Positions 3,235 through 29,514 of a stretch of DNA of 64,000 nucleotides are shown one piece after another. The DNA is from Lachnospiraceae bacterium MC2017 (lineage in GTDB: Bacteria; Bacillota; Clostridia; Lachnospirales; Lachnospiraceae), in NCBI GenBank assembly GCA_000701625.1, contig JNJK01000006.1:124001-188000 (forward strand), in the 5' to 3' direction. Every line of letters begins with the position of its first letter. Position 1 is the stretch's first letter. Below the pieces are notes generated by a model. It did not search any database and was not told where the DNA came from. It worked only from the letters and a program-made list of their open reading frames with translations. The position numbers were made by a program, and so were the translations under genes.

Positions 3235-3236
3235 GT

Positions 3237-5018: not shown

Positions 5019-5054
5019 CTTGATATAAGCGCCCCGTAGAGTGATGTATAGTAC
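5019..5054 (+). promoter_or_regulatory. Repeated promoter-like element, copy 1
   Basis: TTGATA at 5020-5025, 17 bases, then GATGTA at 5043-5048, with GTAGAGTGAT across the 3' half. It starts immediately after the methylase stop codon and ends 36 bases before ATG 5091. Three further copies are at 6434, 8196 and 29479. Confidence 0.65.
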
Positions 5055-5090
5055 AGCAACAGAAACCACATCATGAACGGAGGCGCAGGA

Positions 5091-5888
5091 ATGAAGATTT
5101 TATTTTTTGAGCAGGACAGAAAAGAGTTCATAAAGCTCTTGGCAGAAAAGATAGGTGTTGAGTCAAAGTACCTTGGAGCACCGAATTTTTCATACCAGGT
5201 CGGCCCCTACATTGTAAATAGGGATGGAACGATGGAAGTGGAAGACAGCGAAGCGGACATAGCGCTTTTAAGAGAATTAAGTGTTCAGGGACTTATCGAT
5301 AACTCCTGGGATGAAGAGCGGGAAGTGATAGATGTAAGCCTGCCGGTACTTGAGTATGATGGAATATCACTCACAAACCTTTTGAAAATGATATACAACC
5401 GATCAGAGATCATCAGCAAGGCGGTGGGAAGCTTGGGTGCATTTGAGATTGATGAAGAGCTTCTCATAAGGATCGCGAAGGAAGAACCAGATACAAGAGA
5501 GAGATTCTTGGAGCTTTGGGAAGAAGGGAATGGAAACGCCTGCTGTAAGGGCCTTGAGATAGATGATGAAAAGATTCATTTTTCAGGTTTTCCGATGACA
5601 GCAGATCCAGATACGGTCAAAGCATACACGGATCTTGCTTCCCTGATCTGCCAGATGGCAAAAAAACAAAAGCGAGCCAACTTTGGAAAAGTGGATTCAC
5701 CAAATGAAAAGTATTCTTTCAGGGTTTGGCTTATCCGAATGGGAATGAACGGTGATGAATACAGCGAAAGCAGAAGGATTCTTCTTTCGAGACTTTCCGG
5801 AAACGGAGCCTTTCGCACAAAAGAGCAGGCAGAGATCGCAAAAGAAAAGCTCAGAGCAGCAAGAAGCCAGACAAAGGGGGTGGAGTGA
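5091..5888 (+). CDS. Uncharacterised cassette protein ('virulence-related' type)
   Basis: A 265-residue acidic cytoplasmic protein with no signal peptide or membrane segment. I start it at ATG 5091 (GGAGG 7 bases upstream) rather than ATG 5073. I know proteins of this kind only as 'virulence-related' in clostridial mobile elements; no activity is established. The last 65 residues or so are clearly homologous to the end of the amidoligase at 6504: both carry the pattern KY..R.WL.R.G..G.E(Y/F)...R..L.R..G...FR. It is the first gene after promoter copy 1 and is spaced one base from the DUF4314 gene. Confidence 0.6.
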   Translation: MKILFFEQDRKEFIKLLAEKIGVESKYLGAPNFSYQVGPYIVNRDGTMEVEDSEADIALLRELSVQGLIDNSWDEEREVIDVSLPVLEYDGISLTNLLKMIYNRSEIISKAVGSLGAFEIDEELLIRIAKEEPDTRERFLELWEEGNGNACCKGLEIDDEKIHFSGFPMTADPDTVKAYTDLASLICQMAKKQKRANFGKVDSPNEKYSFRVWLIRMGMNGDEYSESRRILLSRLSGNGAFRTKEQAEIAKEKLRAARSQTKGVE

Positions 5889-5889
5889 C

Positions 5890-6300
5890 ATGGGATCATT
5901 TGGAATACCAGACGAAATCATCGCGAGCAGAAAAGAACAGTACCCGGTTGGTGCAAGGGTAGAGCTTATTTGCATGAAAGATCCTTATGTTCATCTTGCT
6001 CCTGGAGAGCAGGGAACGGTTACCGGAGTAGATGATATCGGCACGATCCATGTGAAATGGGACTGTGGTAGTGGATTGGGAGTTGCATACGGTGAAGATG
6101 AATGCAGGAGCCTTTGCCCGGACTTTTCTAAAAGGGTCCGGGATGGAATCCTGGCAGTAAGGGATACCGGTAAGACAAACATGTTTGATACCAACGCGGT
6201 GCAGGTGATCGCAAGTGGAATGGAATTTCATGAAACCGTGATTTTTATAGAAGAGCATAAAAAAGAATACTGTACCTTCATTATGACCGGCCATGTGTGA
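5890..6300 (+). CDS. DUF4314-DUF5049 fusion protein
   Basis: A 136-residue protein joining two small domains of unknown function. Residues about 12-75 match DUF4314, an SH3-like barrel (PVGARVELICMKDP, then GEQGTVTGVDDIGTIHVKW). Residues about 82-136 match DUF5049 (DGILAVRDTGKTNMFDTNAV, ending in EEHKKEYCTFIMTG). Both domains are common in conjugative elements and phages of Clostridia, usually beside amidoligase genes. It overlaps the upstream operon region (ATG one base after the previous stop). No enzymatic motif is seen, so an adaptor or binding role is a guess. Confidence 0.75.
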   Translation: MGSFGIPDEIIASRKEQYPVGARVELICMKDPYVHLAPGEQGTVTGVDDIGTIHVKWDCGSGLGVAYGEDECRSLCPDFSKRVRDGILAVRDTGKTNMFDTNAVQVIASGMEFHETVIFIEEHKKEYCTFIMTGHV

Positions 6301-6433
6301 CGAGCGCATGGCCATAATACTATAAATTTTTGGTAGCATCGGTCATGAAAGCACTGAGGGATATTGGAATATGTTTGTAAGATAATGTGCAATTCTTCGG
6401 GTCATATTTGTGTGTTTTATTGTTCGAGTAAAC

Positions 6434-6469
6434 GTTGATGTTATCGGCCTTCAGAGTGATATATGTACA
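6434..6469 (+). promoter_or_regulatory. Repeated promoter-like element, copy 2
   Basis: TTGATG at 6435-6440, 17 bases, GATATA at 6458-6463, with CAGAGTGAT in the 3' half. It ends about 35 bases before the amidoligase start. Confidence 0.65.
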
Positions 6470-6503
6470 TGCAAAAAGCAAAGCACATTCGGGAGGCGAA
6501 AAG

Positions 6504-7451
6504 ATGGACGCAAAGGTTGAAAGAAGAATAAAAAACATGAAAGAGCAGACCTTCGGAGTTGAAGTCGAGATGAACAACATAAAAAGAAAATCCGCAGCAA
6601 CGATCGCAGCCGGATTTTTTGGAACAAACAGATTCGAATATACCGACTCACGAAACGGTTACAGAACTTGGAGCGCATGGGATGAGCAGGGAAGAGAATG
6701 GAAATTCCAAAGAGACTGTTCAATAAGCGGTCCGGATGAAGAAAAATGCGAAATGGTAACGCCGATCCTTAGATACGAAGACATGGATCAGCTGCAGCGC
6801 CTTATAAGAGTTTTAAGACACGCCGGAGCAAAGAGCGATGCATCAAGGGGATGCGGAGTTCACATCCACATAGGAGCCAGCGGACATACACCTAAGACCT
6901 TAAGAAATTTGGCGAACTTAATGGCAAGCCACGAAAGCCTTATTGCGACAGCCCTGAAAATTGATCGGAATAGAATGGCAGATTACTGCAGAACAGTAAA
7001 CCCGAATTTTATAAAGGAGCTGAACAAGAAAAAGCCTGAAACGATGGCGAAACTTGCGGACATCTGGTATACGCAGAACGGCGCAGACTACGACAGGAGC
7101 GGCCATTACAATCAGAGCAGATACCACATGCTGAACTTACACGCAACCTTTACAAAGGGAACCATAGAATTCAGGCTTTTCCAATTCGACAAGCCTGCAA
7201 ACGGAAAAAAGAACGGGCTTCATGCCGGACAGCTAAAAGCATACATTCAGCTTTGCTTGGCACTTAGCCAGATGGCAAAGGATCTTAAATCAGCAAGCCC
7301 AAAGGAGCAGCAGAAAGAAAATCCGAAGTACGCAATGAGAACTTGGCTCCTTCGCCTGGGATTTGTTGGCGAAGAATTCAAAACCGCAAGGGAATTTCTT
7401 ACAAGAAACCTTCCGGGGGATACCGCATTTAGGAACGGAAGAACTGCATAA
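6504..7451 (+). CDS. Amidoligase family protein
   Basis: A 315-residue enzyme of the Amidoligase_2 family (glutamine synthetase/GCS-like fold), which joins a carboxylate to an amine using ATP. Visible active-site signatures are GVEVEMN at 18-24 (metal-binding acidic residues), GCGVHIHIG at 116-124 and IEFRLFQFD at 221-229. GGGAGG (6491-6496) fixes the start at ATG 6504. About 65 C-terminal residues match the end of the protein at 5091. In known neighbourhoods these ligases pair with gamma-glutamylcyclotransferase-like enzymes, thought to add and remove an amide-linked group on a protein or metabolite. The next gene here is exactly such a partner. The substrate is unknown. Confidence 0.85.
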   Translation: MDAKVERRIKNMKEQTFGVEVEMNNIKRKSAATIAAGFFGTNRFEYTDSRNGYRTWSAWDEQGREWKFQRDCSISGPDEEKCEMVTPILRYEDMDQLQRLIRVLRHAGAKSDASRGCGVHIHIGASGHTPKTLRNLANLMASHESLIATALKIDRNRMADYCRTVNPNFIKELNKKKPETMAKLADIWYTQNGADYDRSGHYNQSRYHMLNLHATFTKGTIEFRLFQFDKPANGKKNGLHAGQLKAYIQLCLALSQMAKDLKSASPKEQQKENPKYAMRTWLLRLGFVGEEFKTAREFLTRNLPGDTAFRNGRTA

Positions 7452-7491
7452 GAAGGGAGGGGCGCAAGCCCTTCCTGAAAAGGAGAGAACG

Positions 7492-7932
7492 ATGAAAAGG
7501 TATTATTTGGCATACGGAAGTAACCTGAATATTGAACAGATGCAATGGCGATGTCCGACCGCAAAGGTTGTCGGGACGGTGGTTTTGCCGGATTATGAAC
7601 TGCTATTCAAAGGAAGCATGACAGGCGCCTACCTTACCATTGAGAAAAAGGAAAATTCGAGCGTACCGATGGCGGTTTGGGAAGTTGAAGCAGAAGACGA
7701 GAAAGCTCTGGATCGGTATGAAGGGTATCCACATTTTTATTACAAAAAGGACCTGGAGCTAACAAACGAAGAAAAAAGAATAAAGGCATTTGTATATATC
7801 ATGCATGAGGATATGGCGTTAGGGCTTCCGACAAAAGCCTATGTCGAGACCTGCCTTGCGGGATACAAAGCATTCGGCTTTGATAAGAAAATTTTGCTTG
7901 AGGCGATTGAAAAAAGTGGAAAGGGGATTTGA
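7492..7932 (+). CDS. Gamma-glutamylcyclotransferase-like (AIG2) protein
   Basis: A 146-residue protein of the GGCT/AIG2 fold. The signature YGSNLN (residues 5-10) forms the substrate-binding loop. The conserved catalytic glutamate corresponds to E79 or the nearby E in LDRYEGYP, a typical GGCT motif. Enzymes of the fold release 5-oxoproline from gamma-glutamyl amides. RBS AGGAG precedes ATG 7492. It lies 40 bases after the amidoligase, so the pair probably makes and breaks an amide linkage. This pairing is established for the family; its role in this phage is inference. Confidence 0.8.
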   Translation: MKRYYLAYGSNLNIEQMQWRCPTAKVVGTVVLPDYELLFKGSMTGAYLTIEKKENSSVPMAVWEVEAEDEKALDRYEGYPHFYYKKDLELTNEEKRIKAFVYIMHEDMALGLPTKAYVETCLAGYKAFGFDKKILLEAIEKSGKGI

Positions 7933-7934
7933 GT

Positions 7935-8144
7935 ATGAAGTCAGGAGAAAGAACTAAAAGGATATGCCCGATTTGTGGGCGCGAATATACCGCAGTGCCG
8001 GCTACTTCAAGAATAGATAACGTAACGCCCATATGCCCGGAATGCGGAGCGAGGCAGGGACTTGAAAGCATGGGGGTAAAGAGAAAAGAGCAGGACGAGA
8101 TTCTTGAGATAATTAACAGGTATTATGACATGAAGAAGGCATAA
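7935..8144 (+). CDS. Small zinc-ribbon protein
   Basis: A 69-residue protein with two CxxC knuckles, CPIC (residues 13-16) and CPEC (about 35-38), forming one zinc ribbon, followed by a short helical tail. ATG 7935 is used because AAGGGG lies 8 bases upstream; it begins 2 bases after the previous stop. It belongs to the amidoligase operon. It has no further motif and its role is unknown. Confidence 0.65.
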   Translation: MKSGERTKRICPICGREYTAVPATSRIDNVTPICPECGARQGLESMGVKRKEQDEILEIINRYYDMKKA

Positions 8145-8195
8145 AATACACAGTCAAAAAGCACATAATTTGTGTAGATTATAAGCGCCAGATTG

Positions 8196-8231
8196 CTTGA
8201 TATAAGATCCGCGTAGAGTGATATATACATC
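8196..8231 (+). promoter_or_regulatory. Repeated promoter-like element, copy 3
   Basis: TTGATA at 8197-8202, 17 bases, GATATA at 8220-8225, with GTAGAGTGAT in the 3' half. It ends 36 bases before ATG 8267, the same distance as copy 1. Confidence 0.65.
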
Positions 8232-8266
8232 AACAAAAAACACACACCGAAACGGAGGAAAGCAAA

Positions 8267-8509
8267 ATGGCAAAGGTAAAGGTAGACTTCAGACAGGTTG
8301 AGGAACTCATCGACAAGGAAATCGAGGAACTTGAAAAAGAATACGACTTAGACGACAGGGACATAGCAGAAATCAGGAAAGAGATTTACACAGCAAACGG
8401 CTGGTACGGAGATCCTTTCAAGGAAGAAGAGGAAGAGGAGGAAGACGAAACCTACTACCCGAAAGAAACGCTTGCAAGCCTGGGATTCACCTGCTGGGAT
8501 TTCCTTTAA
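8267..8509 (+). CDS. Small acidic hypothetical protein
   Basis: An 80-residue, strongly acidic protein with a run of glutamates near residue 53 and a helical N-terminal half (ELIDKEIEELEKEYDLDD). It has its own copy of the repeated promoter element and a GGAGG site 8 bases before ATG. I recognise no family. The last gene of the accessory cassette, it precedes a hairpin and a convergent gene. Confidence 0.6.
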   Translation: MAKVKVDFRQVEELIDKEIEELEKEYDLDDRDIAEIRKEIYTANGWYGDPFKEEEEEEEDETYYPKETLASLGFTCWDFL

Positions 8510-8516
8510 GAAAGGA

Positions 8517-8534
8517 GGGGAGGGAAACCTCCCC
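8517..8534. terminator. GC-rich hairpin between convergent genes
   Basis: GGGGAGG and CCTCCCC form a perfect 7-bp stem with a GAAA tetraloop. It separates the convergent genes at 8267 and 8555 and could end transcription in both directions, although no strong T-tract follows on the plus strand. Confidence 0.5.
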
Positions 8535-8554
8535 ATTAAAAGGTCTCATGAGCA

Positions 8555-8836
8555 TTAATCATAGCCGAGTTTCCATTGCATGTTGTTTGGAAAGAAGTAA
8601 AGCCTTACGAATTTTTTATAACCTAAAACGTCAATTTTGCATTCGAATATAGAAGTATCCTTTGTAACGTAAAGCCCGTCTTTAGTATTGTAAGCACCAG
8701 TAATATCACTGAGACGGTAGTTCTTTATAGTGAAACGCTGGTAGACACCATCCTCGTCAAGTATCTGAAACTTGATGGGGATGATTGTTCCATCAGATTT
8801 ATGCTCGCAAATTACATCAACTTTATTTATAACCAT
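8555..8836 (-). CDS. Small uncharacterised protein, phage cargo
   Basis: A 93-residue protein encoded against the phage operons. ATG at 8836 is chosen because GGAG lies 8 bases upstream on the minus strand. The sequence has a beta-rich look with the pattern IPIKFQILDEDGVYQRFTI, resembling a common family of roughly 80-90 residue Firmicutes proteins of unknown function. A promoter with a perfect TATAAT precedes it. Own promoter plus opposite strand between structural operons is the usual sign of a moron expressed from the prophage. Confidence 0.6.
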   Translation of the reverse strand: MVINKVDVICEHKSDGTIIPIKFQILDEDGVYQRFTIKNYRLSDITGAYNTKDGLYVTKDTSIFECKIDVLGYKKFVRLYFFPNNMQWKLGYD

Positions 8837-8873
8837 AATAAAAACTCCAAACACTAGTTCTAGAAACAAAATT

Positions 8874-8902
8874 ATTATAACTCGAATAAATGTTTGCGTA
8901 AA
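8874..8902 (-). promoter_or_regulatory. Promoter of the minus-strand cargo gene
   Basis: Read on the minus strand: -35 TTTACG (8897-8902), 17-base spacer, -10 TATAAT (8874-8879). Transcription would start about 30 bases before the gene at 8836. Confidence 0.6.
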
Positions 8903-9035
8903 GGGTAGATATAAATGTGTTTCAAAATGTGCAAACCTAAGGAGAATCGTCGATGTTCTCCTTTACGTTTGTCGTGGTGTATATGAAAAGAAAACGTATA
9001 TTTGATAAAGGAACAAAAACAAGGAGGTAAGAGTC

Positions 9036-9395
9036 ATGCATTTAAATGAGAATACTGAACATTCATCAAATCAGATACGAACAGTGGCTGATTTAGTATT
9101 AGGGTGGGGAATATTCATATCGATTATTTCAGCGATTGCCATTTTTATTGTGATGTATACGACAATCAAAAATATGGTCGTGACGATAATTGCTGCTTGC
9201 ATTTCCTTACTCATAATATTTTTTGGTAATTATGTCGTGTATGTATTTATATCTTCTTACGCAACTTTTATCGAAAACTCAGATCGAACTGAAGTTATTG
9301 AGGCTCTTGACCGGGTGTGTGATGCGATCAGGGGAGTAGATAATACAATTGATTCTACAGCAAATGATGACACACAAGAAGATGATGCTGAATGA
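9036..9395 (+). CDS. Small membrane protein
   Basis: A 119-residue protein with two hydrophobic segments (about residues 20-43, GWGIFISIISAIAIFIVMY, and 50-75) and an acidic C-terminus ending DDTQEDDAE. GGAGG lies upstream of ATG 9036. It stands alone, flanked by the divergent cargo gene and by a terminator at 9405. No family is recognised. Membrane location is inferred from hydrophobicity; superinfection exclusion would be one possible role for such a phage gene. Confidence 0.55.
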   Translation: MHLNENTEHSSNQIRTVADLVLGWGIFISIISAIAIFIVMYTTIKNMVVTIIAACISLLIIFFGNYVVYVFISSYATFIENSDRTEVIEALDRVCDAIRGVDNTIDSTANDDTQEDDAE

Positions 9396-9406
9396 GATAT
9401 GAAAGG

Positions 9407-9433
9407 GCTGGATCTAGTGGTCCAGCTTTTTTT
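9407..9433 (+). terminator. Terminator after the membrane protein gene
   Basis: GCTGGA (9407-9412) and TCCAGC (9421-9426) form the stem, followed by TTTTTTT. Confidence 0.8.
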
Positions 9434-9457
9434 GTTAGTCAAATAGAAATTTTGGGG

Positions 9458-9484
9458 CAGCCGAGAGGCTGTTTTTTTTTTTTA
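9458..9484 (+). terminator. Terminator-like hairpin before TerS
   Basis: CAGCC, loop GAGA, GGCTG, then a run of about 13 T. It ends only some 18 bases before the TerS start codon. Confidence 0.7.
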
Positions 9485-9501
9485 TTGGGAGAGTGATAAG
9501 A

Positions 9502-9981
9502 ATGGCAACAAGAGGTAGAAAGCCAAAACCTACAGCAGTGAAGGTTTTGGAAGGAAATCCTGGGAAGAGACAATTAAATATTAACGAGATCAAGCCGGCC
9601 CAGGCAAAGCCTCCGAAATGCCCATCATGGCTCGAAGAGGAAGCGAAGGCAGAATGGAAGCGATTAGGTAAGAACCTGTTTGAACTGGGGATTTTAACGG
9701 ATCTTGATGTGGCAGCATTTTCATCTTACTGTCAGGCCTATGCACGATGGAGAGAAGCTGAGGAATTTATCTCACAGCATGGTTCACTGGTAAAAACTCC
9801 GTCTGGATACTGGCAGCAGGTTCCACAGGTTTCGATAGCTCATCAGAACCAGAAAATAATGATGCAGGCGGCTGCCGAGTTTGGATTAACACCTTCTGCA
9901 AGAAGCAGAATTATTGCAGGGGATAGCAAGAAAGCCGAAGTTGATGAGATGGAGTTCCTTCTGCTGAACGGAGGTGCCTGA
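9502..9981 (+). CDS. terS: Phage terminase small subunit, P27 family
   Basis: A 159-residue P27-type terminase small subunit, the DNA-recognition part of the packaging motor. The N-terminus MATRGRKPKPTAVKVLEGNP is characteristic of the family, and residues 45-150 form the helical domain. ATG 9502 is used with GGGAG ten bases upstream; GTG 9493 is in frame but too close to that site. Its stop overlaps the TerL start. It binds the packaging site and hands DNA to TerL. A 15-codon relic of what may be another TerS lies at 3187. Confidence 0.9.
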   Translation: MATRGRKPKPTAVKVLEGNPGKRQLNINEIKPAQAKPPKCPSWLEEEAKAEWKRLGKNLFELGILTDLDVAAFSSYCQAYARWREAEEFISQHGSLVKTPSGYWQQVPQVSIAHQNQKIMMQAAAEFGLTPSARSRIIAGDSKKAEVDEMEFLLLNGGA

Positions 9982-11528
9982 TGTTTGATGAGGCAAAAGC
10001 TCAGCGGGCCATAAAGTTTATTCAGAATTTGAAGCATACAAAGGGACGCTGGCATGGTAAGAATTTTGATCTCCTTCCCTGGCAGGAAGAAATAATCCGG
10101 ACGATTTTTGGAACTGTAAAAGAAAATGGTTATCGTCAGTACAATACCTGCTATTGTGAAATCCCGAAGAAGAACGGGAAAAGCGAGATAGCAGCTGCGA
10201 TTGCGTTATTTTTAACCTGTGGAGATATGGAGTGGGCAGCAGAAGTGTATGGCTGCGCAAGTGATCGTCAGCAGGCCAGCATCGTATTTGACGTTGCAGT
10301 CGATATGGTTGACCAGTGCCCAGCGCTTAAGAAAAGAATAAAGCCGATCATGTCGGTAAAACGACTGGTGTATCAGCCAACAAATTCATATTACCAGGTG
10401 CTGTCGGCGGAGGCTTATACAAAGCATGGTCTGAACGTTCATGGAGTTATCTTTGATGAGCTGCATTCGCAGCCGACACGAGAGCTATTTGACGTAATGA
10501 CGAAGGGCTCCGGTGATGCGCGTACCCAGCCTTTATACTTTCTAATCACGACTGCAGGTACAGATAGAAATTCGATCTGTTATGAGCAGCATCAGAAAGC
10601 GGAGGATATCCTTGCAGGAAGGAAAAATGATCCAACGTTCTATCCTGTTATATACGGACTTCCGGATGATGCAGACTGGGGAGATGAGAAGAACTGGTAT
10701 ATAGCGAATCCTTCTCTGGGGGAGACCATTGATATTGAAAAGGTCAGAAATGCATACCAGTCTGCGAAGGAAAATCCTGCGGAAGAGAACCTGTTTCGTC
10801 AGCTCCGATTAAACCAGTGGGTTAAGCAAAGTTGTAGGTGGATGCCTATGGACCGTTGGGACGAGTGTGCTTTTGCTGTAGATCCGGAAGAGCTAGTTGG
10901 ACGAGAGTGCTATGGAGGACTCGATTTATCATCTACATCGGATATAACAGCTTTTGTTCTGGTGTTCCCGCCTCGGACAGAGGATGAGAAATACATCGTA
11001 ATGCCATTTTGCTGGATACCGGAGGACAACATGAAGCTTAGAATTCGAAGGGATCATGTTCCGTATGATACCTGGGCTAAGACTGGAGACCTCCAGACAA
11101 CGGAGGGAAATGTAATACACTACGGTTTCATTGAGAAATTTATAGATGATCTTGGTAAGAAATATCATATCCTAGAGATCGCTTTTGACCGGTGGGGTGC
11201 AACGCAGATGGTTCAGGATTTGGAGGACCTGGGATTTACAGTAATACCTTTTGGTCAGGGTTATAAGGATATGTCGCCTCCAACAAAGGAGCTTATGAAG
11301 CTAGTTCTTGAAGGAAGGATAGCGCATGGCGGGCATCCGGTACTTCGATGGATGATGGATAACGTCTTTGTTAGACAGGATCCTGCTGGAAACATAAAAA
11401 TGGATAAAGAGAAAAGTACAGAAAAGATCGATGCAGCAGTAGCTCTGGTTATGGCTCTTGATAGGGCGATTAGAAACATGGGCTCTACTGAGAGCGTTTA
11501 TGATAGCCGGGGGCTGATCGTTTTTTAA
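9981..11528 (+). CDS. terL: Phage terminase large subunit
   Basis: A 515-residue packaging ATPase-nuclease. The N-terminal ATPase shows a Walker A-like IPKKNGKS at 61-68 and Walker B VIFDE at 156-160 with the following H. The C-terminal RNase H-like nuclease begins near GLDLSSTSDIT (about 311-321). It translocates DNA into the prohead and cuts it. Its ATG overlaps the TerS stop by one base, so the pair is translationally coupled. Length is normal for the family. Confidence 0.95.
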   Translation: MFDEAKAQRAIKFIQNLKHTKGRWHGKNFDLLPWQEEIIRTIFGTVKENGYRQYNTCYCEIPKKNGKSEIAAAIALFLTCGDMEWAAEVYGCASDRQQASIVFDVAVDMVDQCPALKKRIKPIMSVKRLVYQPTNSYYQVLSAEAYTKHGLNVHGVIFDELHSQPTRELFDVMTKGSGDARTQPLYFLITTAGTDRNSICYEQHQKAEDILAGRKNDPTFYPVIYGLPDDADWGDEKNWYIANPSLGETIDIEKVRNAYQSAKENPAEENLFRQLRLNQWVKQSCRWMPMDRWDECAFAVDPEELVGRECYGGLDLSSTSDITAFVLVFPPRTEDEKYIVMPFCWIPEDNMKLRIRRDHVPYDTWAKTGDLQTTEGNVIHYGFIEKFIDDLGKKYHILEIAFDRWGATQMVQDLEDLGFTVIPFGQGYKDMSPPTKELMKLVLEGRIAHGGHPVLRWMMDNVFVRQDPAGNIKMDKEKSTEKIDAAVALVMALDRAIRNMGSTESVYDSRGLIVF

Positions 11529-11560
11529 AGGTACTTGTACTTTTTGTAATCAGCGTGCTT

Positions 11561-11917
11561 TTATGCAACATCTATGCAATCATCTGCGCAGTCTTCAGTT
11601 GGATAGCGATCGGCATACTTCTTTACAAGTTTCTCAAAGAAGCTATCCTTTCGACCGTAAAGGAAATTACGCTTTTTTGTGATGTAGTCATCGTTGTCGA
11701 CGATTGCAAGAACGGCATCGAGAACTGTTCCGAATGCATAGAAGAGTTTGTACCTATTATCGGATTTCATGTAAAGAGCGCAGCCATCTATGCGTTTATC
11801 AATTAGCCATAAGGTTCTTGTTCTCTTTGAGATGAGCTCAAAACGATGAGTGCCATCCTTGACAGTTTTAAAACAGGGCATAGTTAATAATTCATAATCA
11901 GTTTCTGTAAAGTACAT
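11561..11917 (-). CDS. Uncharacterised cargo protein, minus strand
   Basis: A 118-residue cytoplasmic protein running against the phage operon between TerL and portal. AGGAG 7 bases upstream supports ATG 11917. It has no recognised motif; a hydrophobic stretch near GTVLDAVLAIV and a cysteine-containing acidic tail (EDCADDCIDVA) are visible. A strong promoter lies about 150 bases upstream, so it probably has a long leader and is expressed from the prophage independently of lytic genes. Confidence 0.6.
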   Translation of the reverse strand: MYFTETDYELLTMPCFKTVKDGTHRFELISKRTRTLWLIDKRIDGCALYMKSDNRYKLFYAFGTVLDAVLAIVDNDDYITKKRNFLYGRKDSFFEKLVKKYADRYPTEDCADDCIDVA

Positions 11918-12093: not shown

Positions 12094-12124
12094 TAGGCAT
12101 ATTGTTTTTTAGAAGATACATGGT

Positions 12125-22754: not shown

Positions 22755-22990
22755 TGAACGCTTATGAAAAGATTATAAAGAGAATGCGATCTGAAGGTGG
22801 GAAGAATACGGTGTATCCTTTGAAACTTGGTGAGGTTTTGTCAGGTAAGAAGATTAGCCTCGGTAATATCAAGCTGGATAGTTCACTGTATGTGCTTCTT
22901 GATAGTGTCGGCAGCATTTCCAAGGGGGACACAGTGCTTATTGCAGCGCTTTCTAATGAAGAGTATGTCGTACTCGGAAAGGTGAAGTGA
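22754..22990 (+). CDS. Small baseplate protein (DUF2577, XkdR-like)
   Basis: A 78-residue DUF2577 protein, the XkdR equivalent: N-terminal helix then a small beta barrel (LKLGEVLSGKKISLGNIKLD and GDTVLIAALSNEEYVVLGKV). It starts inside the stop codon of the hub gene. Proteins at this place lie near the baseplate hub. Confidence 0.82.
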   Translation: MNAYEKIIKRMRSEGGKNTVYPLKLGEVLSGKKISLGNIKLDSSLYVLLDSVGSISKGDTVLIAALSNEEYVVLGKVK

Positions 22991-23385
22991 TGTTTCCGTT
23001 TGATATAGATGAAAAGAATCTGGAAGATAGCCAGAACAAGATCTTTAAGGAATATGAAATAAACTTCAAAACAGGCCAGCTTACCGGAAGAACGGTAACC
23101 GGAGTGGAAGCGATCAAAGTGTGGGCATGGCTTGCTCTTAAGACCGCAAGATACAGATTCCAGCAATACTCATGGAACTATGGAAGTGAGCTTGATGATC
23201 TAATCGGGAACGGATACGCCGGAGAGCATGTGGAGTCTGAGGTTAAGCGTATGGTTACGGATTGTCTGAAGGCAAATAAGCACATAAAAGGGATCAGGGA
23301 TTTCACTTGTAGTTTTGAGGATGGAAAAATTACAGCAGCTTTTACGATCATAACGGATTACGGGGAGGCAGATATAAGTGTTTGA
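22990..23385 (+). CDS. xkdS: Baseplate wedge protein (DUF2634, XkdS-like, gp25 type)
   Basis: A 131-residue protein of the DUF2634/XkdS family, related to the T4 gp25 wedge that seeds sheath assembly. The signature GVEAIKVWAWLALKTARYRF is clear, followed by the helical QYSWNYGSELDDLIG. ATG 22990 overlaps the previous TGA. Confidence 0.88.
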   Translation: MFPFDIDEKNLEDSQNKIFKEYEINFKTGQLTGRTVTGVEAIKVWAWLALKTARYRFQQYSWNYGSELDDLIGNGYAGEHVESEVKRMVTDCLKANKHIKGIRDFTCSFEDGKITAAFTIITDYGEADISV

Positions 23386-24436
23386 GGATAGAACGTATGA
23401 AAACATCATGAAAGAAATGATGTCGGAAATGCCTGATGACATAAATACAGAAGAGGGATCTCTTATATTCAATGCTTGTGCAAAGCAGGCATTGAAACTG
23501 GAAGAGGCATATCTTTCTATGGCATACATTTACGATAACATGCTTCCGGACACCCAGGATGAAGAGCATCTCATCAGATATTCAAAGGAACGTGGAGTTG
23601 AGATAAAGAAAGCCACACATGCAATACTTCTCGGGGTTTTTAATCAGGAGATAGAGACTGGAACACGCTTCACCCTAAATGACATGGACTACACGGTGGT
23701 GGAATGTATTGGTGGCTTCAACTATAGGCTTGAGTGTGAGGAGGAAGGTACAGTGGGAAACACCTCATTTGGAGAGCTCGATCCTGTTGACTATGTTGAT
23801 GAGTGGCAGGGCGGACAGATAACAAAAGTGCTGGTGCCTGGAGTGAATCGTGAGGACACGGAGGTTTTCCGGCAGAGGGTTTTCGATACCTTTACCACAA
23901 AGGCTTTCGGAGGCAACAGGGCTGACTATATCCGTTTCTTTAACGAGATGGATGAGGTTGGAAGCATAAAGGCCGAAAGACGTGATATGGCGGCAACATG
24001 TATAGATGTCTATTTCACCGACAGGGATTTCAGAGTTCCATCTACGGTTGTTGTTTCATCTGTACAGGAAAAGGTAGATCCGGAATCATCCCAGGGTGAT
24101 GGAAACGGACGCGCACCGATAGGACATAAGGTTATGGTACATCCTGTAATTGGTGTGACTATAGATATAGAGACAAAGATTACATTTGAAAATGGTTATT
24201 CATACGATGCTGTGAAATCGTACATAGATAGTAAGGTAAGTGAGTACTTTAGTGAACTTCGTGCAAAGTGGAGTGATTCTGAGAACCTCACGGTAAGGAT
24301 TTCACAGCTTGAGTCAAGGATTCTTTCGGTTGATGGAATTGCTGATATCTCCGGTAGCAAACTTAACGGAAAAGATGAGAACTATGTGCTTGGAACGTAT
24401 GAGATACCGCTGGAAGGAGAATTCAATGCAGTTTAA
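23378..24436 (+). CDS. xkdT: Baseplate J / gp47-like protein
   Basis: A 352-residue baseplate J protein (XkdT, T4 gp6 relative), the main wedge component. It has the typical N-terminal IMKEMMSEMPDDINTEEGSL, the central GGNRADYIRFFNEMDEVGSI (J-protein core) and the GRAPIGHKVMVHPV strand. It starts at GTG 23378 with GGGGAGG nine bases before it and overlaps the wedge gene by 8 bases. Confidence 0.93.
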   Translation: MFEDRTYENIMKEMMSEMPDDINTEEGSLIFNACAKQALKLEEAYLSMAYIYDNMLPDTQDEEHLIRYSKERGVEIKKATHAILLGVFNQEIETGTRFTLNDMDYTVVECIGGFNYRLECEEEGTVGNTSFGELDPVDYVDEWQGGQITKVLVPGVNREDTEVFRQRVFDTFTTKAFGGNRADYIRFFNEMDEVGSIKAERRDMAATCIDVYFTDRDFRVPSTVVVSSVQEKVDPESSQGDGNGRAPIGHKVMVHPVIGVTIDIETKITFENGYSYDAVKSYIDSKVSEYFSELRAKWSDSENLTVRISQLESRILSVDGIADISGSKLNGKDENYVLGTYEIPLEGEFNAV

Positions 24437-24947
24437 CACACCAGAGGTTGTTGCCGGAATAAGGGATATTTCAGAAATTTACAAAATGAATGATACCGTT
24501 GGAAGCTGTATTGATGAAGAGATAAAAAGTCTTGAGGATGACATTTTCATTGAAAGCTGCGGTGAACAGAAGCTGGGGCGTATTGAAAAGCTGCTAGGAA
24601 TATGTCCAAAAGACACTGACGGAATGGAAATGAGGCGGTTTGCTGTCATGACCGGAATCAGTGACAGGAAGACCTACAACATGGACGGATTGAAAAGAAA
24701 GATAGAGGCACTATGCGGTAAGGATAATTACAGGCTTTATCTTGACTTTCCAAGTGCACTAGTTCATTTATCACTGACTCTTGCAGCAAAGAACTGCTAT
24801 GAATCCGTTATGGATATGCTTGATGAACAGCTTCCGCTTAACATGGCGATTGAAGGAGAAATCCTGTACCACACATACGAAGCATTGAAATCATATACAT
24901 ACGGTGAACTTGCGGATTATGAATGTGGGCAGATAAGGGAGATCTGA
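24426..24947 (+). CDS. Tail protein DUF2313 (YmfQ-like, gpI type)
   Basis: A 173-residue protein of the YmfQ/DUF2313 family that joins baseplate to tail fibre. AAGGAG six bases before ATG 24426 sets the start. It has the family's layout: N-terminal helices, then a mixed domain with EKLLGICPKDTDGMEMRR. The ATG of the fibre gene overlaps its TGA. Confidence 0.85.
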   Translation: MQFNTPEVVAGIRDISEIYKMNDTVGSCIDEEIKSLEDDIFIESCGEQKLGRIEKLLGICPKDTDGMEMRRFAVMTGISDRKTYNMDGLKRKIEALCGKDNYRLYLDFPSALVHLSLTLAAKNCYESVMDMLDEQLPLNMAIEGEILYHTYEALKSYTYGELADYECGQIREI

Positions 24948-26422
24948 TGAAATACACACAAAACTATAAGCTAAATAAGCCAGACAGTACTGATAAGTTT
25001 GATATTGATCATTTCAACTCGAACTTTGACAAGATAGATTCGGAAATGAAGAATGCAGCAAACGGACTGAATTATGTTAAAAAGGCGATCACTTCAAATC
25101 CGGACGGGACGGGGGCCATTGATCTCACGATAGGAACCAGGGATGGGGAGAAGGGCGATTTGTCTGTAGCCATAGGCGAAAAAGTAATGGCCACAGGAAA
25201 AGGCGCTATTGCAGCCGGGGTTGGAAGTAATGCAAGCGGTGCATTCAGTCATGCTGAAGGAACATTTTATGTGGAAAGACTTAGGGAAAGCCTAAAGATA
25301 ACAGACGTTGAACAGAACGCCGTTGTTATTGCTTCTATAAAGGGTATAGAGAATGGAGAGGTAGATCTTGAAGAGTGGCTTTCGGAATCAAAGGTTTATA
25401 TTGTTTCGCAGAATGTGAATTACGACGATCCTGAAAGTATCTTAAGCACTACTAAGAAAATAGAAGTTGATAGATATGTAACGGCATCAGAAGGATATCG
25501 CTTCAAAGCTGATAAAGAAAGTCATTCGTTAAAAGCCGGAGACAAGGTGTATCTTATTAGGCTTTTTGAAACAAAGAGCATAGGAAATTATTCTCATGCA
25601 GAAGGTATGGGAACCTGTTCTGATGGTGAGGCATCACATGCAGAGGGAATACACACGTCAGCAATTGGAAACGCAGCACACAGCAGTGGTCTTAAGAGTA
25701 TTGCATCCGCTAGTGGAGGATTTGCGCATGGATCTGGAGTGATAGCGGATAATGGTTATTCGGTAGCCTTTGGTGTATATAATGCGCACATGAAGGGAGG
25801 GGCTACGCCCTATCAGGGAAGAGGAACAGCTTTTGTAATAGGAAATGGACTGGAAGATTCACGTTCAAATGCGCTTTCACTGAGCTACGATGGAGTACTG
25901 AAAACAGCTTCAACTATGACAGCATCTACTTCGGCGGATTATGCTGAGTATTTCGAATGGAAAGATGGTAATTCAGAAAACGAGGATAGAGTCGGATATT
26001 TTGTAACGCTTGATGGAAATATGATAAGGAAAGCTACAGATCAGGATGATTATGTCCTAGGCGTGGTTTCTGGAAGTCCATGCATTCTTGGAAATGGTGA
26101 TTGTGATGTATGGAATGGAAGGCTCATAAGGGATGACTTCAGGAGAGTAATCATGGAAGAGGACAGCGATGGAGGTCATGCAAAGATAAATCCGGAATAT
26201 GACAATACACGTAATTATAAAAACAGAGCAGACAGACCTGAATGGTCAGCGGTAGGAATGCTTGGAATTCTACCCGTCAGACAGGATGGAACCCTTAAGG
26301 TGAACGGCTATGCCACTGTAAATCTTGATGGAATGGCAACTGAGTGTGACAGATCAGTCAAAAACGCCTACAGGGTAATAAATATAAAATCTGCGGAAGT
26401 CGCAGAAATAATTTTTCGTTAA
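24947..26422 (+). CDS. Phage appendage protein with YadA-like repeats and G2 self-cleaving domain
   Basis: A 491-residue tail appendage. After an attachment region (about 1-45) come trimeric adhesin-head repeats (AIGEKVMATGKGAIAAGVGS and SHAEG motifs at about 70-105 and 215-275). The C-terminal 150 residues match the peptidase G2 domain of phage neck appendages: TSADYAEYFEWKDG at its start, VLGVVSGSP and GMLGILPVR later. In that family a Ser/Asp pair cuts the C-terminal chaperone off after trimerisation. It probably binds host glycans. A strong terminator follows. Confidence 0.85.
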   Translation: MKYTQNYKLNKPDSTDKFDIDHFNSNFDKIDSEMKNAANGLNYVKKAITSNPDGTGAIDLTIGTRDGEKGDLSVAIGEKVMATGKGAIAAGVGSNASGAFSHAEGTFYVERLRESLKITDVEQNAVVIASIKGIENGEVDLEEWLSESKVYIVSQNVNYDDPESILSTTKKIEVDRYVTASEGYRFKADKESHSLKAGDKVYLIRLFETKSIGNYSHAEGMGTCSDGEASHAEGIHTSAIGNAAHSSGLKSIASASGGFAHGSGVIADNGYSVAFGVYNAHMKGGATPYQGRGTAFVIGNGLEDSRSNALSLSYDGVLKTASTMTASTSADYAEYFEWKDGNSENEDRVGYFVTLDGNMIRKATDQDDYVLGVVSGSPCILGNGDCDVWNGRLIRDDFRRVIMEEDSDGGHAKINPEYDNTRNYKNRADRPEWSAVGMLGILPVRQDGTLKVNGYATVNLDGMATECDRSVKNAYRVINIKSAEVAEIIFR

Positions 26423-26424
26423 AG

Positions 26425-26446
26425 ACAGCCTTCGGGCTGTTTTTTT
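26425..26446 (+). terminator. Terminator after the appendage gene
   Basis: ACAGCC (26425-26430), loop TTCG, GGCTGT (26435-26440), then seven T. It separates the tail operon from the lysis genes. Confidence 0.9.
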
Positions 26447-26474
26447 AATACACATTTTTATAAGGAGGCTCGAA

Positions 26475-26897
26475 ATGAAAGAGTTATGGAACGTAGCACA
26501 GTGTGCATTTGCAGCAATGGGAGGAGCGATTGGTTCGGTGTTAGGGGGCTTTGATGGATTTCTTTATGCATTGATACTCTTTGTAGTGATCGACTATGTG
26601 TCGGGAATCTTTGTTGCGGTAAGTAACGGAATACTCTCAAGTTCAGTTGGATTCAGGGGAATTGCAAAGAAGGTACTGCTTTTCTTTCTTGTAGCAGTGT
26701 CCACCAGCATTGACCGTCATGTTCTTCAGACCGGAGAGGTCGTAAGGACAGCGGTCATTTTCTTTTATTTATCAAATGAGGGCGTTTCGATTCTTGAAAA
26801 TGCTACCAGGTTAGGGCTGCCGGTACCGGAAAAGTTGAAGAAGGTCCTGGAGCAGATCAAGGAGGGGAATGATGACGGAGAAAAAGAGGTTCATTGA
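26475..26897 (+). CDS. Phage holin
   Basis: A 140-residue holin of the toxin-secretion/phage lysis family (Holin_4, Cph1 type). Three hydrophobic segments (about 10-30, 34-52 and 65-85) and the motif FVVIDYVSGIFVA are typical. It should form membrane lesions that release the endolysin encoded next. GGAGG precedes ATG 26475. Its end overlaps the endolysin start. Confidence 0.92.
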   Translation: MKELWNVAQCAFAAMGGAIGSVLGGFDGFLYALILFVVIDYVSGIFVAVSNGILSSSVGFRGIAKKVLLFFLVAVSTSIDRHVLQTGEVVRTAVIFFYLSNEGVSILENATRLGLPVPEKLKKVLEQIKEGNDDGEKEVH

Positions 26898-27552
26898 GCT
26901 TATTGGCAGCGCGGCTGTAGCAGCGTATGGGGAGTATAAGATACTTCCCTCGCTTGCTATAGCGCAGGCTATTCTTGAAAGTAACTGGGGAAAGAGCGGT
27001 CTTTCGAAGGATTGCTATAACTTTTTCGGGATGAAATGGAGAGTCGGTTGTGGCTGTGATTATAAGGAATATTCGACAAAGGAGCAGAAACCGGATGGCA
27101 GCTACTACACCATAAAAGCTAGGTTCAGAAAATATAGTAGCGTTGAGGAAGGAATCCAGGGGTATTATAAGTTCCTTTCCGGATATAAGCGTTATCACAA
27201 TCTTATAGGTGTGACAGATGCAGACACTGTATGTGATCTCATCCGGGCTGATGGCTGGGCGACTTCTCTAAAGTATGCCGAAAATCTGAAGAAGATGATC
27301 AGGACATACAGCCTGACGGATTACGACAAGAAAGTGATCGGTAAGTCGTCGTTCACAAAAATGAAGGCTATGGTTAGGATAAGTAATCTTCGGATCAGAA
27401 GCGGCCCGGGAACAGACTATGCCTGGACGGGAAAATACTGCGAAAAAGGATATAACAATATCTTAGAAACAAAACCGGGAAAAGGCTCAGTTAAAGGCTG
27501 GGGAAAGCTAGAAGATGGAAGCGGTTGGATTTCGATGGATTATGCAAAATAG
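26872..27552 (+). CDS. Endolysin: glucosaminidase with SH3-like domain
   Basis: A 226-residue lysin. Residues about 8-145 are an N-acetylglucosaminidase (LytG/FlgJ-like) domain with the catalytic Glu in AQAILESNWGKSG and the FFGMKW motif. Residues about 160-226 form an SH3-like wall-binding domain (ISNLRIRSGPGTDYAWTG). Adjacent ATG codons at 26869 and 26872 are both possible behind GGAGGG. Paired with the overlapping holin gene, it lyses the cell at the end of the phage cycle. Confidence 0.92.
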   Translation: MTEKKRFIELIGSAAVAAYGEYKILPSLAIAQAILESNWGKSGLSKDCYNFFGMKWRVGCGCDYKEYSTKEQKPDGSYYTIKARFRKYSSVEEGIQGYYKFLSGYKRYHNLIGVTDADTVCDLIRADGWATSLKYAENLKKMIRTYSLTDYDKKVIGKSSFTKMKAMVRISNLRIRSGPGTDYAWTGKYCEKGYNNILETKPGKGSVKGWGKLEDGSGWISMDYAK

Positions 27553-27647
27553 AAATAATTGAAGTAGAATAGCGCAAATACTATACTATAGTATATGCTG
27601 CAGTTTGGGGAATAAGAGTGTTTATTTTCATAGTGGAGGTAACACCA

Positions 27648-27905
27648 ATGCCTAAAGATGATAAAAGAAACATTGAAGAACTAAAAAAAATTAAAGGTTG
27701 TATCAGACAATCCGCCGATATTCAAGATATTGCAAATAGGGGATTTGAAGCGCTCAAAAACACGTTGTCCCCCGCAGATATGATGGAATTTCTATCTTAT
27801 GTCGCCGTTAATGCCAGGATTGCTGATCTTGATGGAAGACTTAACAACGATAATGCAGATTCAGCTACTATGACTTATGAAGATATCATAAAAATATTTA
27901 GTTGA
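27648..27905 (+). CDS. Small hypothetical protein after the lysis module
   Basis: An 85-residue helical, mildly acidic protein with no known motif; it includes FEALKNTLSPADMMEFLSY. GGAGGT lies 7 bases before ATG 27648. It is the last rightward gene of the phage late region, before the reverse-oriented brnA fragment. Function unknown. Confidence 0.5.
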   Translation: MPKDDKRNIEELKKIKGCIRQSADIQDIANRGFEALKNTLSPADMMEFLSYVAVNARIADLDGRLNNDNADSATMTYEDIIKIFS

Positions 27906-27935
27906 ATAAGATAAGAAGCTAGAATAGATAAGGTA

Positions 27936-28112
27936 TTAGCTCTGTCGATAATATTTTGGATTTGCAGGTCTAAACTCATGGAGTTCGTCGTCTGTAAGAT
28001 TTGGAGCATCATCAGTGAAGGTTACGGGCTTTTTTGAAGCAGCCTTTATTTCTTCAAGCTGTTCTTTAGTAGGGAAGTCTTCTGGGTTCAGTTTCATTGA
28101 TTCTGTAGCCAT
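27936..28112 (-). pseudogene. Truncated orphan BrnA antitoxin fragment
   Basis: A 58-codon frame nearly identical to residues 1-54 of the intact BrnA at 45211 (shared KEQLEEIKAASKKPVTFTDD and DELHEFRPANPKYYR). It stops where the DNA-binding ribbon-helix-helix domain should begin, and no BrnT gene is upstream. Its RBS GGAGG is intact, so a short BrnT-binding-type peptide could still be made, though decay is the simpler view. Confidence 0.8.
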
Positions 28113-28213
28113 TGTAGATCCTCCTTTCACGAGGAGATAAGTAAAGTTTTTATCTCAGTATGAAAAATAGTAATCGCCATAGGATTACAAGATAGAACTA
28201 AACTAATGATAGT

Positions 28214-28259
28214 AAGAGGATAACTTCGTAGTCAATGACTGAAGTTATCCTCTTTTTTC
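28214..28259. terminator. Strong terminator, right flank of the brnA fragment
   Basis: AAGAGGATAACTTC (28214-28227) pairs with GAAGTTATCCTCTT (28241-28254), with further AGTC/GACT pairing in the loop, followed by T-run TTTTTT. Confidence 0.85.
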
Positions 28260-28261
28260 GT

Positions 28262-28350
28262 TTTAAATATATTTTCTAAGAAGCAAGTCAGTCTGCGGAT
28301 TGTCACCAGCGAAGAATATGTGTGATGAAAACTACCGAAATCTTTTATTA
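28262..28350 (-). pseudogene. 3' fragment of a GNAT acetyltransferase gene
   Basis: The minus strand encodes FSSHIFFAGDNPQTDLLLRK and a stop, matching the last 27 residues of the intact GNAT protein at 56637 (FSSHTFCVGDDPQTDLLMRK). An in-frame stop lies just upstream. It is a relic, and evidence that this flank shares ancestry with the 56-kb region. Confidence 0.75.
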
Positions 28351-28439
28351 GGGTGGCAGCTCCTTTTATAAGTTACGTCGATTACAGCTAGCTGTAATAT
28401 GCACATGCTATTATGTTAGTAATTTCAAGGAGGATGCTT

Positions 28440-28625
28440 ATGACAAGAGCTACTTATGAGCCTACAGGTGAAGAGTGCTGGATAAACATGGACTATGTTA
28501 TTGATGCTTATCCGCTGGGGAATAAGATGAGGCTTTATACTATAGATAGAGAAAGAGGTTCATATCTTGTAAATAGAGAGGCGTTTGAATTTGAGCAGGC
28601 GTTTGCAAATCAGCTTAAATTTTGA
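28440..28625 (+). CDS. Small hypothetical protein
   Basis: A 61-residue protein with a beta-rich look (CWINMDYVIDAYPLGNKMRL). AAGGAGG six bases before ATG 28440 chooses this start over ATG 28413. No family recognised. It stands between the GNAT relic and a structured non-coding stretch, upstream of the HTH/zinc gene. Confidence 0.5.
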   Translation: MTRATYEPTGEECWINMDYVIDAYPLGNKMRLYTIDRERGSYLVNREAFEFEQAFANQLKF

Positions 28626-28659
28626 AATGACAGTAAATAAATAATAAAAACTAGGGAAA

Positions 28660-28760
28660 GATAATATTGACCGATGTTACAGCTTTAAGTTGTAACCGAC
28701 GAAGAGTAGCCAGGAAATATGCGATATAAGCGTATATTTTCTGGCTATATTTTTTTATCA
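28660..28760 (+). ncRNA. Candidate structured RNA ending in a terminator
   Basis: GTTACA (28676 onward) pairs with TGTAAC, followed by a linker CGACGAAGAG and then a long terminator stem TAGCCAG (28707-28713) with CTGGCTA (28741-28747), inner A/T pairs, and a seven-T run. No reading frame covers it. It could be a small RNA, a leader attenuator of the HTH/zinc gene, or simply a terminator. Confidence 0.4.
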
Positions 28761-28777
28761 AAAAAATAGCAGAATAT

Positions 28778-28967
28778 CCCGGAATTTACTCCGTCAAATC
28801 CCCTTAGTAAAGATAGAAGGCAGAACCTTCGAACGATAGGAGGAATTTTACAATGACAGACAAGCAGAAAAACCAGATTGCTGTATATAGAGGGCAGGGG
28901 CTTGGATATTCCGTGATAGCTCAGATGATGGGGTTATCAATTAATACTATTAAGACACATTGCAGGA
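28778..28967 (+). repeat. 190-bp block duplicated at 45659-45848
   Basis: The two copies match at 189 of 190 positions by direct reading (T/G difference 4 bases before CAATG). The block covers a leader with the hairpin GAAGG/CCTTC, the ribosome-binding site and the first 115 bases of the HTH/zinc gene. Confidence 0.95.
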
Positions 28968-29263
28968 GGTATGGGCTTGGTGGGAAACGTGCATTTGAAG
29001 ATCAGGGAGATATAACTATTTCTGCATGTGAAAATTGTGGGAAACCAGTACAGCAGAAGAAGGGAAGAAAGAAGAAACGTTTTTGCTGTGACAGATGTAG
29101 AAATGCCTGGTGGAATGCACACTTGGAGTTAGTGAATAGGAAAGCCAATTATGAGTGTACATGCGAAAAGTGCGGAAAGAAATTCATTTCGTATGGAAAT
29201 AAGGATAGGAAGTATTGTAGCCATGAGTGTTATATCGAAGATCGTTTCGGAGGTGAGTACTAA
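28853..29263 (+). CDS. HTH and double zinc-ribbon protein, recombinase-linked copy
   Basis: A 136-residue paralogue of the protein at 3294. It has the same layout: helix-turn-helix (GLGYSVIAQMMGLSINTIKT), CENC/FCCDRC cluster and CEKC/YCSHEC cluster. RBS AGGAGG precedes ATG. Its stop is directly coupled to the SHOCT-like gene, and the recombinases follow, so it probably belongs to the integration module as DNA-binding accessory or regulator. Its 5' end recurs in truncated form at 45734. Confidence 0.7.
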   Translation: MTDKQKNQIAVYRGQGLGYSVIAQMMGLSINTIKTHCRRYGLGGKRAFEDQGDITISACENCGKPVQQKKGRKKKRFCCDRCRNAWWNAHLELVNRKANYECTCEKCGKKFISYGNKDRKYCSHECYIEDRFGGEY

Positions 29264-29478
29264 TGCAGGTAACAAAGACAAACACTCCTGCGCTTAATAC
29301 TCCGGCAAGAGCGATGACTATTGAGGCTATGCAGCAGGATTTTGAGTATGAAATGGCAGAAAAGATCACGAAGGCGCTTCTCGATAACGGGCTTATATCT
29401 GAGGATGAACGGGAAAGGATATCCGCATTAAACCGGGAAAAATTCACCCCTTTTTATCGCGATATTATGGAGAAATAA
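29263..29478 (+). CDS. SHOCT-like small protein
   Basis: A 71-residue protein. The C-terminal half (EMAEKITKALLDNGLISEDE, then RERISALNREKF) resembles a SHOCT-type short helical domain often found on or beside large serine recombinases of Firmicutes. It overlaps the HTH/zinc gene by one base and directly precedes the recombinase promoter element. A role in directionality control is plausible but inferred. Confidence 0.65.
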   Translation: MQVTKTNTPALNTPARAMTIEAMQQDFEYEMAEKITKALLDNGLISEDERERISALNREKFTPFYRDIMEK

Positions 29479-29514
29479 CTTGATATATGTGGCATCAAGA
29501 GTGATGAATAGTAT
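29479..29514 (+). promoter_or_regulatory. Repeated promoter-like element, copy 4
   Basis: TTGATA at 29480-29485, 17 bases, GATGAA at 29503-29508, with CAAGAGTGAT in the 3' half. It begins right after the SHOCT-like stop codon and ends 24 bases before the first recombinase. Confidence 0.6.

Follow-up and report, generated by a model that had tools for sequence, protein, structure and literature searches.

A promoter-like element upstream of cargo and serine recombinase genes in a lineage of temperate phages

The window analysed here is the whole stretch of 64,000 nucleotides from Lachnospiraceae bacterium MC2017 (contig JNJK01000006.1, positions 124,001 to 188,000). It covers part of a prophage in which four copies of a 36-bp element, with the motifs TTGATR and GATRWA at a spacing of 17 bases, precede an amidoligase cassette and serine recombinase genes.

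Four copies and the genes that follow them

The pattern TTGATR-N12-AGAGTGATRWA matches the window at 5020 (TTGATATAAGCGCCCCGTAGAGTGATGTA), 6435 (TTGATGTTATCGGCCTTCAGAGTGATATA), 8197 (TTGATATAAGATCCGCGTAGAGTGATATA) and 29480 (TTGATATATGTGGCATCAAGAGTGATGAA), always on the + strand, against a chance expectation of 0.23 matches; none of 100 shuffles reaches four. A first-pass annotation of this DNA had described four copies with TTGATR, a 17-base spacer, GATRWA and a constant AGAGTGAT, and the scan confirms each of these features. With up to three mismatches, six places match in the window (two beyond the four), where 2.26 are expected. In the whole assembly (4.26 Mb) the exact pattern occurs four times, solely as the window copies, and allowing two mismatches yields 25 matches, against 5 for the reversed pattern.

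All four copies belong to class I of the classes defined in the next section, and they share the + strand with the genes around them. The first (5019..5054, CTTGATA-N17-GATGTA, matrix score 44.0) is 5' of the first cassette gene (5091..5888), which matches the amidoligase family phrog_2443 (E 2.6e-42) without a Pfam match, and which is followed by a gene for a DUF4314-DUF5049 protein (5890..6300, Pfam). The second (6434..6469) is 5' of the amidoligase gene proper (6504..7451, Amidoligase_2, Pfam E 2.5e-54); next come genes for a gamma-glutamylcyclotransferase of the AIG2/GGACT type (7492..7932, Pfam) and for a small zinc-ribbon-like protein (7935..8144, phrog_2945, with a weak Pfam match under the cut-off). 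The third (8196..8231) is 5' of a small acidic open reading frame (ORF; 8267..8509) for which neither Pfam nor phrog gives a family, a situation found identically in IMG/VR contig L128. The terminase small and large subunits are encoded at 9493..11528. The fourth copy (29479..29514) follows the genes of a helix-turn-helix (HTH)/zinc-ribbon protein (28853..29263, phrog_2308) and of a small SHOCT-like protein (29263..29478, phrog_2996, E 6.6e-20; its homologue in contig L152 matches Pfam SHOCT_2), and is 5' of three serine recombinase-type ORFs (29538-31103, 31064-31516, 31509-33086). The first of these has Resolvase, Recombinase and zinc ribbon domains in Pfam; the second and third, for which tblastn finds relatives in 8 and 43 loci, are assigned by reading.

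Measured from the end of each 36-bp copy, the start codons at 5091, 6504, 8267 and 29538 are 36, 34, 35 and 23 bases away, much as first described (about 24-36), and these positions support the proposed link between cassette and recombinases. The remark that the box is no clean sigma-A -10 also stands: in a scan with the sigma-70 consensus, all four copies go unflagged. The first cassette ORF has an alternative start at 5073.

Anatomy and distribution of the element

In 358 loci, which comprise IMG/VR contigs, phage records and bacterial contig sequence surrounding recombinase genes (4.57 Mb in total), the looser pattern TTGMTA-N12-AGAG occurs at 386 distinct sites and its reverse at 10. About one third of these loci were fetched through their class I match, so that the number of sites and the class proportions are biased. 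By the bases that follow AGAG, the sites divide into TGATxwA (class I, 230), TTAATAT (65), CGAATAT (45), GTAATAT (13), CTAATAT (6), TGAATAT (1) and others (26). Starting from the 3' half alone (AGAGTGATATAT), 157 of 161 distinct sites have TTGATA, TTGCTA or TTGACT at one fixed offset: the hexamers are TTGATA (94), TTGCTA (52), TTGACT (11), TTGATG (2) and two others (1 each), and 146 of the 147 TTGMTA stand exactly there. A sigma-A -35, taken as a TTGACA-like hexamer at 16-18 bases, is present in 157 of the 161 sites, with a 17-base spacer to the second hexamer of the first-pass annotation. As to the sigma-A -10 (A at position 2, T at position 6), the TAATAT of classes TT, GT and CT conforms by reading, and the GATATA or GATGAA of class I does not.

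Downstream of 311 of 338 sites, in a count made without a control set, we find a loosely defined Shine-Dalgarno stretch and a start codon, and 307 of these 311 starts are 15-64 bases from the -10. A search for the pattern, as first suggested, finds four exact matches in its own genome and an element that recurs in many phages before gene starts. With its fixed -35/-10 geometry, its orientation parallel to genes and its closeness to starts in many phages, the element looks like a promoter. Three other features were tried and dropped: a direct repeat (two TGATATA at a distance of 21 bases), given up once TTGCTATT and TTGACT variants had turned up; a 5'-terminal leader hairpin, which shows merely a small excess near position 43; and a stop codon as part of the element, since a stop precedes CTTG in 125 of 344 sites and only 20 of the 125 end frames of at least 50 codons.

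The exact pattern is present in 4 of 99 genomes (MC2017 and relatives), the other three having one copy each, and in at least 120 stretches of IMG/VR, about 20 of which look like chance, being without the wider consensus and scoring low with the matrix built from the set. A 47-base consensus matches 115 records of INPHARED (2.3 Gb, E up to 10), of which 79 are Streptococcus phages, including phi1207.3, phi-m46.1 and the Javan series; among the matches listed are also Erysipelothrix phi1605, Terrisporobacter TPDSL_ph1, a phage recorded from Gardnerella, and gut phages, two of them labelled Ca. Heliusvirales. In 7.3 Gb of plasmids, nine records match, none better than E 0.8, and Rfam has no match in the window. 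The number of copies per phage or contig is one to six.

The available text of PMC9226167 enumerates nine core genes of Ca. Heliusviridae / Heliusvirales and reports phages of this lineage in more than 90% of the participants of one study. In the window phage (L145), TerL, portal, Clp protease and major capsid all have Pfam matches, and so has DNA polymerase I (PF00476, E 1.5e-20). DUF2800 (PF10926, E 1.7e-165) and Enc34_ssDNA-bd (PF10991, E 7.6e-76), the latter presumably the former DUF2815, are present as well. The candidate for the VRR-NUC nuclease has no Pfam match and is a probable nuclease by its match to the endonuclease family phrog_93 (E 2.1e-27); the candidate SNF2-like helicase is an open frame of 444 amino acids that enters the window directly before the protein at 72 and is helicase-like by reading. 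The element recurs in a temperate phage lineage with core genes of the Ca. Heliusviridae type.

Among the literature searched, including for the strings AGAGTGATAT, TTGATATA and AGAGTGATATA and judged largely by titles, no paper was found that describes the element; the papers containing AGAGTGATAT include none whose title concerns phage promoters, and one on phi29 DNA packaging. In the available text of PMC3485107, on a related Clostridioides difficile element, the word promoter is absent.

The element also appears when loci are fetched by protein similarity. It is found with 0-1 mismatch within 150 bases upstream of 18 of 79 recombinase genes from GTDB genomes for which upstream sequence exists; none of the 419 control windows drawn from these loci contains it, even at up to three mismatches. 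For 42 of the remaining 61, a related box stands at the corresponding place (AGAGGTAATATG, AGAGCGAATATG, AACGCTAATATG, TACGGGAATATAG and others, mostly with TTGATA or TTGCTA at equal distance), these classes having been made by eye after the sequences were seen; 19 of the 79, mainly distant homologues, have no box upstream that we could see. The comparison of recombinase neighbourhoods kept 59 of the 79 loci, and another comparison step took in 50 of 80. Upstream of 75 amidoligase genes there are 11 class I boxes with up to two mismatches; the 331 control windows yield 3, perhaps from adjacent copies of the element. By eye, 41 of the other 64 genes have a box of class CG, TT or TG. Of the 56 loci among L189-L256 with enough upstream sequence, 55 encode the SHOCT-like protein, of about 70 residues, immediately before the recombinase, whichever box class they have; the window gene at 29263-29478 is placed likewise, and the protein could be a directionality factor.

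For the positions of copies within phages we use 101 element rows over 47 records of at least 28 kb, chosen by eye; seven records with chance patterns, and most rows with mismatches elsewhere, were left out. Near copies are 2.4-9 kb from the gene of a late regulator, described below (about 15 kb in W08), and far copies about 20-36 kb from it, at the recombinase end where annotated. In all 38 records that match the regulator profile, the elements are downstream of the regulator gene, and in 37 of the 38 they are all on its strand, the exception being one opposite copy in G118. Among the genes that follow class I copies are those of recombinases, of the amidoligase family and of small proteins encoded close to the terminase, and several of these families also follow other classes.

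The late regulator and the question of one switch

The protein at 72..560 (+ strand), which the first-pass annotation took for a sigma-like factor that might read the element, is an ArpU/RinA-like late regulator (phrog_36, E 3.8e-8). A weak second match, to phrog_79 (antitermination protein Q-like, E 9e-5), suggests that it may act by antitermination. In phi1207.3, Javan100, the Gardnerella-associated phage and G099, proteins encoded at the equivalent position match phrog_36 too. The regulator profile matches 38 of the 47 element records and, weakly, one of the seven chance-pattern records; it missed phi1207.3 and G099.

Of 30 regulator homologues, 17 have four direct repeats at 10-11-base spacing around their own stop codon (at most 5% of shuffles, six-base words), and 13 do not, including L170, the copy of the window phage, where a gene intervenes. 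A whole-period repeat test exceeds the shuffles in just 3 of 10 phages (window, phi1207.3 and Gva). The repeat words vary by phage: TTGGCATG, TGGTACG, ACTTCACCC, TTGCGAC, AGTAAAT and GTAGAC, with repeats of the type GCACTAAATT in phi1207.3. In the window, four imperfect 11-bp direct repeats (GTACTAAAATT-GTGCTGAACTT-GTGCTAACCTT-GGGCTGACATC, 2512..2555, + strand), presumably sites of the regulator, score 0.84 against a maximum of 0.80 in 40 shuffles, and 0.92 in a second test, reached by none of 200. They are followed by TATTAT (2571..2576, + strand), the -10 of the presumed late promoter, as part of a sigma-70 match CTGACA-17-TATTAT (2548-2576, 10/12). The window phage thus appears to have a late-promoter system of the Ltr/RinA/ArpU type as well.

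This presumed late promoter (2512-2576) is separated from the regulator gene by a leucine-rich-repeat protein gene (665-2461), which has a signal-like start and the look of cargo. In the late leader (2512-2628 in the window, and likewise in L152 and L151), repeats and promoter are immediately followed, before an HNH gene, by a terminator-like hairpin (2596..2628, + strand, 13 pairs).

The elements of the window are at least 4.4 kb downstream of the regulator gene. In the 190 bases upstream of the four copies, the repeat test finds no late-type repeats (p 0.21-0.46, with none of 200 shuffles reaching the window's late promoter as positive control), and over 351 element sites 23 reach p ≤ 0.05, about the level of chance. 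Since the element keeps its sequence across phages in which the presumed regulator sites differ, the regulator is unlikely to read it, and the role first proposed for the protein at 72 is probably wrong.

Whether cargo and recombinase obey a single switch is a separate question. There are 87 loci with several sites, most of them too short to span both cassette and recombinase. All sites are of one class in 69 of these loci, where shuffling gives 23.5 on average and 35 at most; if the classes are pooled into two superclasses by the base (G or T) that precedes the A-rich part, the sites agree in 85 loci, compared with 39.8 on average and 52 at most after shuffling. Such concordance can stem from common descent and gene conversion. 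G166 and G168 combine class I copies at the cassette with GTAATATG or GTAACATG at the recombinase, and five prophages of the Peptoniphilus/Anaerococcus type combine a class I variant at the cassette with TACGGGAAyATAG at the recombinase. The idea of one switch for cargo and mobility genes is thus plausible for the window phage, with its four class I copies, but is no general rule, since the two boxes differ in some prophages.

A proposed separate start for cargo and integrase

The explanation that we favour, with somewhat better than even confidence, is that the element is a family of promoters, proper to this lineage, that provides cargo genes and serine integrase with a separate start, distinct from the late promoter. 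The amidoligase and gamma-glutamylcyclotransferase cargo and the integrase would each start transcription at the element, outside the presumed regulator-controlled late promoter. Host RNA polymerase with its housekeeping sigma would read the TTGMTA or TTGACT -35 at the fixed 17-base spacer, and AGAG with its atypical -10 block (GATATAT, GAATAT or TAATAT, by class) would make the promoter weak or dependent on a further factor. Such a moron-type arrangement would let cargo and integrase be expressed while the late operon is silent, in the lysogen or early after infection or induction. We infer the start of transcription at the element, the form of polymerase that reads it, and the timing from the sequences. 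As reader we weight host polymerase first, alone or with a further factor, since the -35 variants are of the housekeeping type and classes TT, GT and CT have TAATAT.

Terminator-like hairpins would fit transcription units that run independently of the late operon, as expected of morons and of an integrase with expression of its own. Of 30 loci, 15 have such a hairpin within the 220 bases that follow the regulator stop codon; of 136 random windows, 1 has one. Where the gap is short (75-300 bases), a hairpin stands between cassette and terminase in 5 of 8 relatives (Gva, Javan105, PV036412, PV036447, Javan261), and another separates the lysis genes from the recombinase genes in 4 of 5 (PV036412, TPDSL, phi1207.3, Javan261); random 150-base windows have one in 2 of 180 cases. 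The window has a hairpin in the gap between cassette region and terminase (9454..9475, + strand, in a stretch of 985 bases) and another between the lysis genes and the recombinase unit (28706..28748, + strand, 18 pairs and a T-run).

Several observations count against a separate start as we picture it. No hairpin ends the cassette in phi1605, in TPDSL (100 bases available) or in phi1207.3 (which has no cassette copy), and none is found at the lysis end in Gva. Random 950-base windows contain a hairpin in 36 of 180 cases, and both window hairpins are in stretches near 1 kb, where chance finds are common, so that they carry little weight; a looser scan counts 8 hairpins in 2400-9500 against 5.2 in shuffles. 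The GATATA of class I has no T at either end of the -10, and AGAGTGATATAT is conserved far beyond what a housekeeping promoter needs, which makes a plain host reading of class I doubtful.

In a possible but clearly less probable alternative, AGAG and the -10 are read by a conserved factor that the phage encodes in addition to the late regulator, such as an alternative sigma or a sigma-appropriating protein, the classes being its specificities. The small number of discrete classes, their concordance within loci and the lack of a sigma-A -10 in class I agree with such a factor; shared descent alone could yield the concordance, though, and cassette and recombinase classes differ within one prophage in G166 and G168. 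None of the three candidates tried occurs in all 47 element records, many of which are fragments: the HTH/zinc-ribbon protein is found in 30, a sigma-24-like protein in 15 (some weakly) and phrog_2513 in 6. We set aside the two latter early proteins on these counts, and the HTH/zinc-ribbon protein because, of 17 class I loci, 5 have it next to the recombinase, and because it has no match in phi1605 and TPDSL_ph1. The lytic phage SPO1 has late promoters with a -10 GATATT and a dedicated sigma; this G-initial -10 resembles GATATA, but the -35 differs. A bolder proposal, which we put forward only tentatively, is that of a second transcription switch beside the late regulator: a conserved reader, phage-coded or phage-recruited, would recognise TTGMTA-N12-AGAG with discrete -10 codes and couple cargo to integrase expression, and moved cargo would work only with the matching code.

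The conserved block could also be mainly an operator, a conserved repressor or activator covering -35 to -14 of otherwise ordinary promoters. Such a protein would account for a kept -35 and AGAG beside a varying -10, with AGAG having been part of the TTGMTA-N12-AGAG search pattern, but we see no dyad symmetry by eye and found no partner, and we hold this to be unlikely. A little less credit still goes to the late regulator as reader, which would turn the element into a late promoter: in its favour, its profile matches 38 of the 47 element records and the kept elements are downstream of its gene in all 38, and yet its own repeats, in 17 of 30 homologues, vary by phage around a constant element that has no repeats beyond chance. 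Finally, a recombination or module-boundary sequence that aids cassette exchange, and is no promoter, fits the borders of variable cargo and the places before recombinases; as it needs neither a fixed orientation, nor closeness to start codons, nor a -35-like hexamer, it is very improbable.

Taken as a promoter, the element can be set beside known systems. Like the late promoters of the Ltr/RinA/ArpU type (phi13 P23 and TP901-1 Alt, described in the available text of PMC13123087 as a single promoter with upstream direct repeats and a canonical TATA box), it would be a phage promoter for operons of temperate Gram-positive phages; unlike them, it has no direct repeats, occurs in one to six copies and is constant in sequence. 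Like moron promoters, as described in the available texts of PMC7067206 and PMC6469090, it would give accessory genes their own promoter amid phage genes silent in the lysogen; unlike them, one near-identical element would serve a range of unrelated cargo genes, and the integrase as well, throughout a lineage. Of the marks of a moron (own promoter, own terminator and transcription in the lysogen), we find the element, as a candidate promoter, and hairpins, the window hairpins being not beyond chance. The element thus looks like a private start signal for cargo genes and integrase in a large group of gut-type phages. If it is their shared promoter, it predicts which prophage genes are switched on in gut bacteria, cargo genes can be marked from sequence alone, and the reading of a non-canonical -10 across many Firmicutes hosts becomes a directly testable question.

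Some minor observations concern other places in and around the prophage. Upstream of the window, in the early half of the prophage (L145 2743-10596), a large ATPase gene (phrog_2801) stands beside an apparent type I restriction system. Segments 45025-45227 and 45654-45848 are copies (88% and 98%) of 27926-28128 and 28773-28967; the window pattern scan finds no element match in them, and they are perhaps the remains of a second, degraded copy of the border between lysis genes and recombinase. Segments 32716-32830, part of the third recombinase gene, and 38029-38143 form an 88% direct repeat, of which the latter is perhaps another relic right of the prophage.

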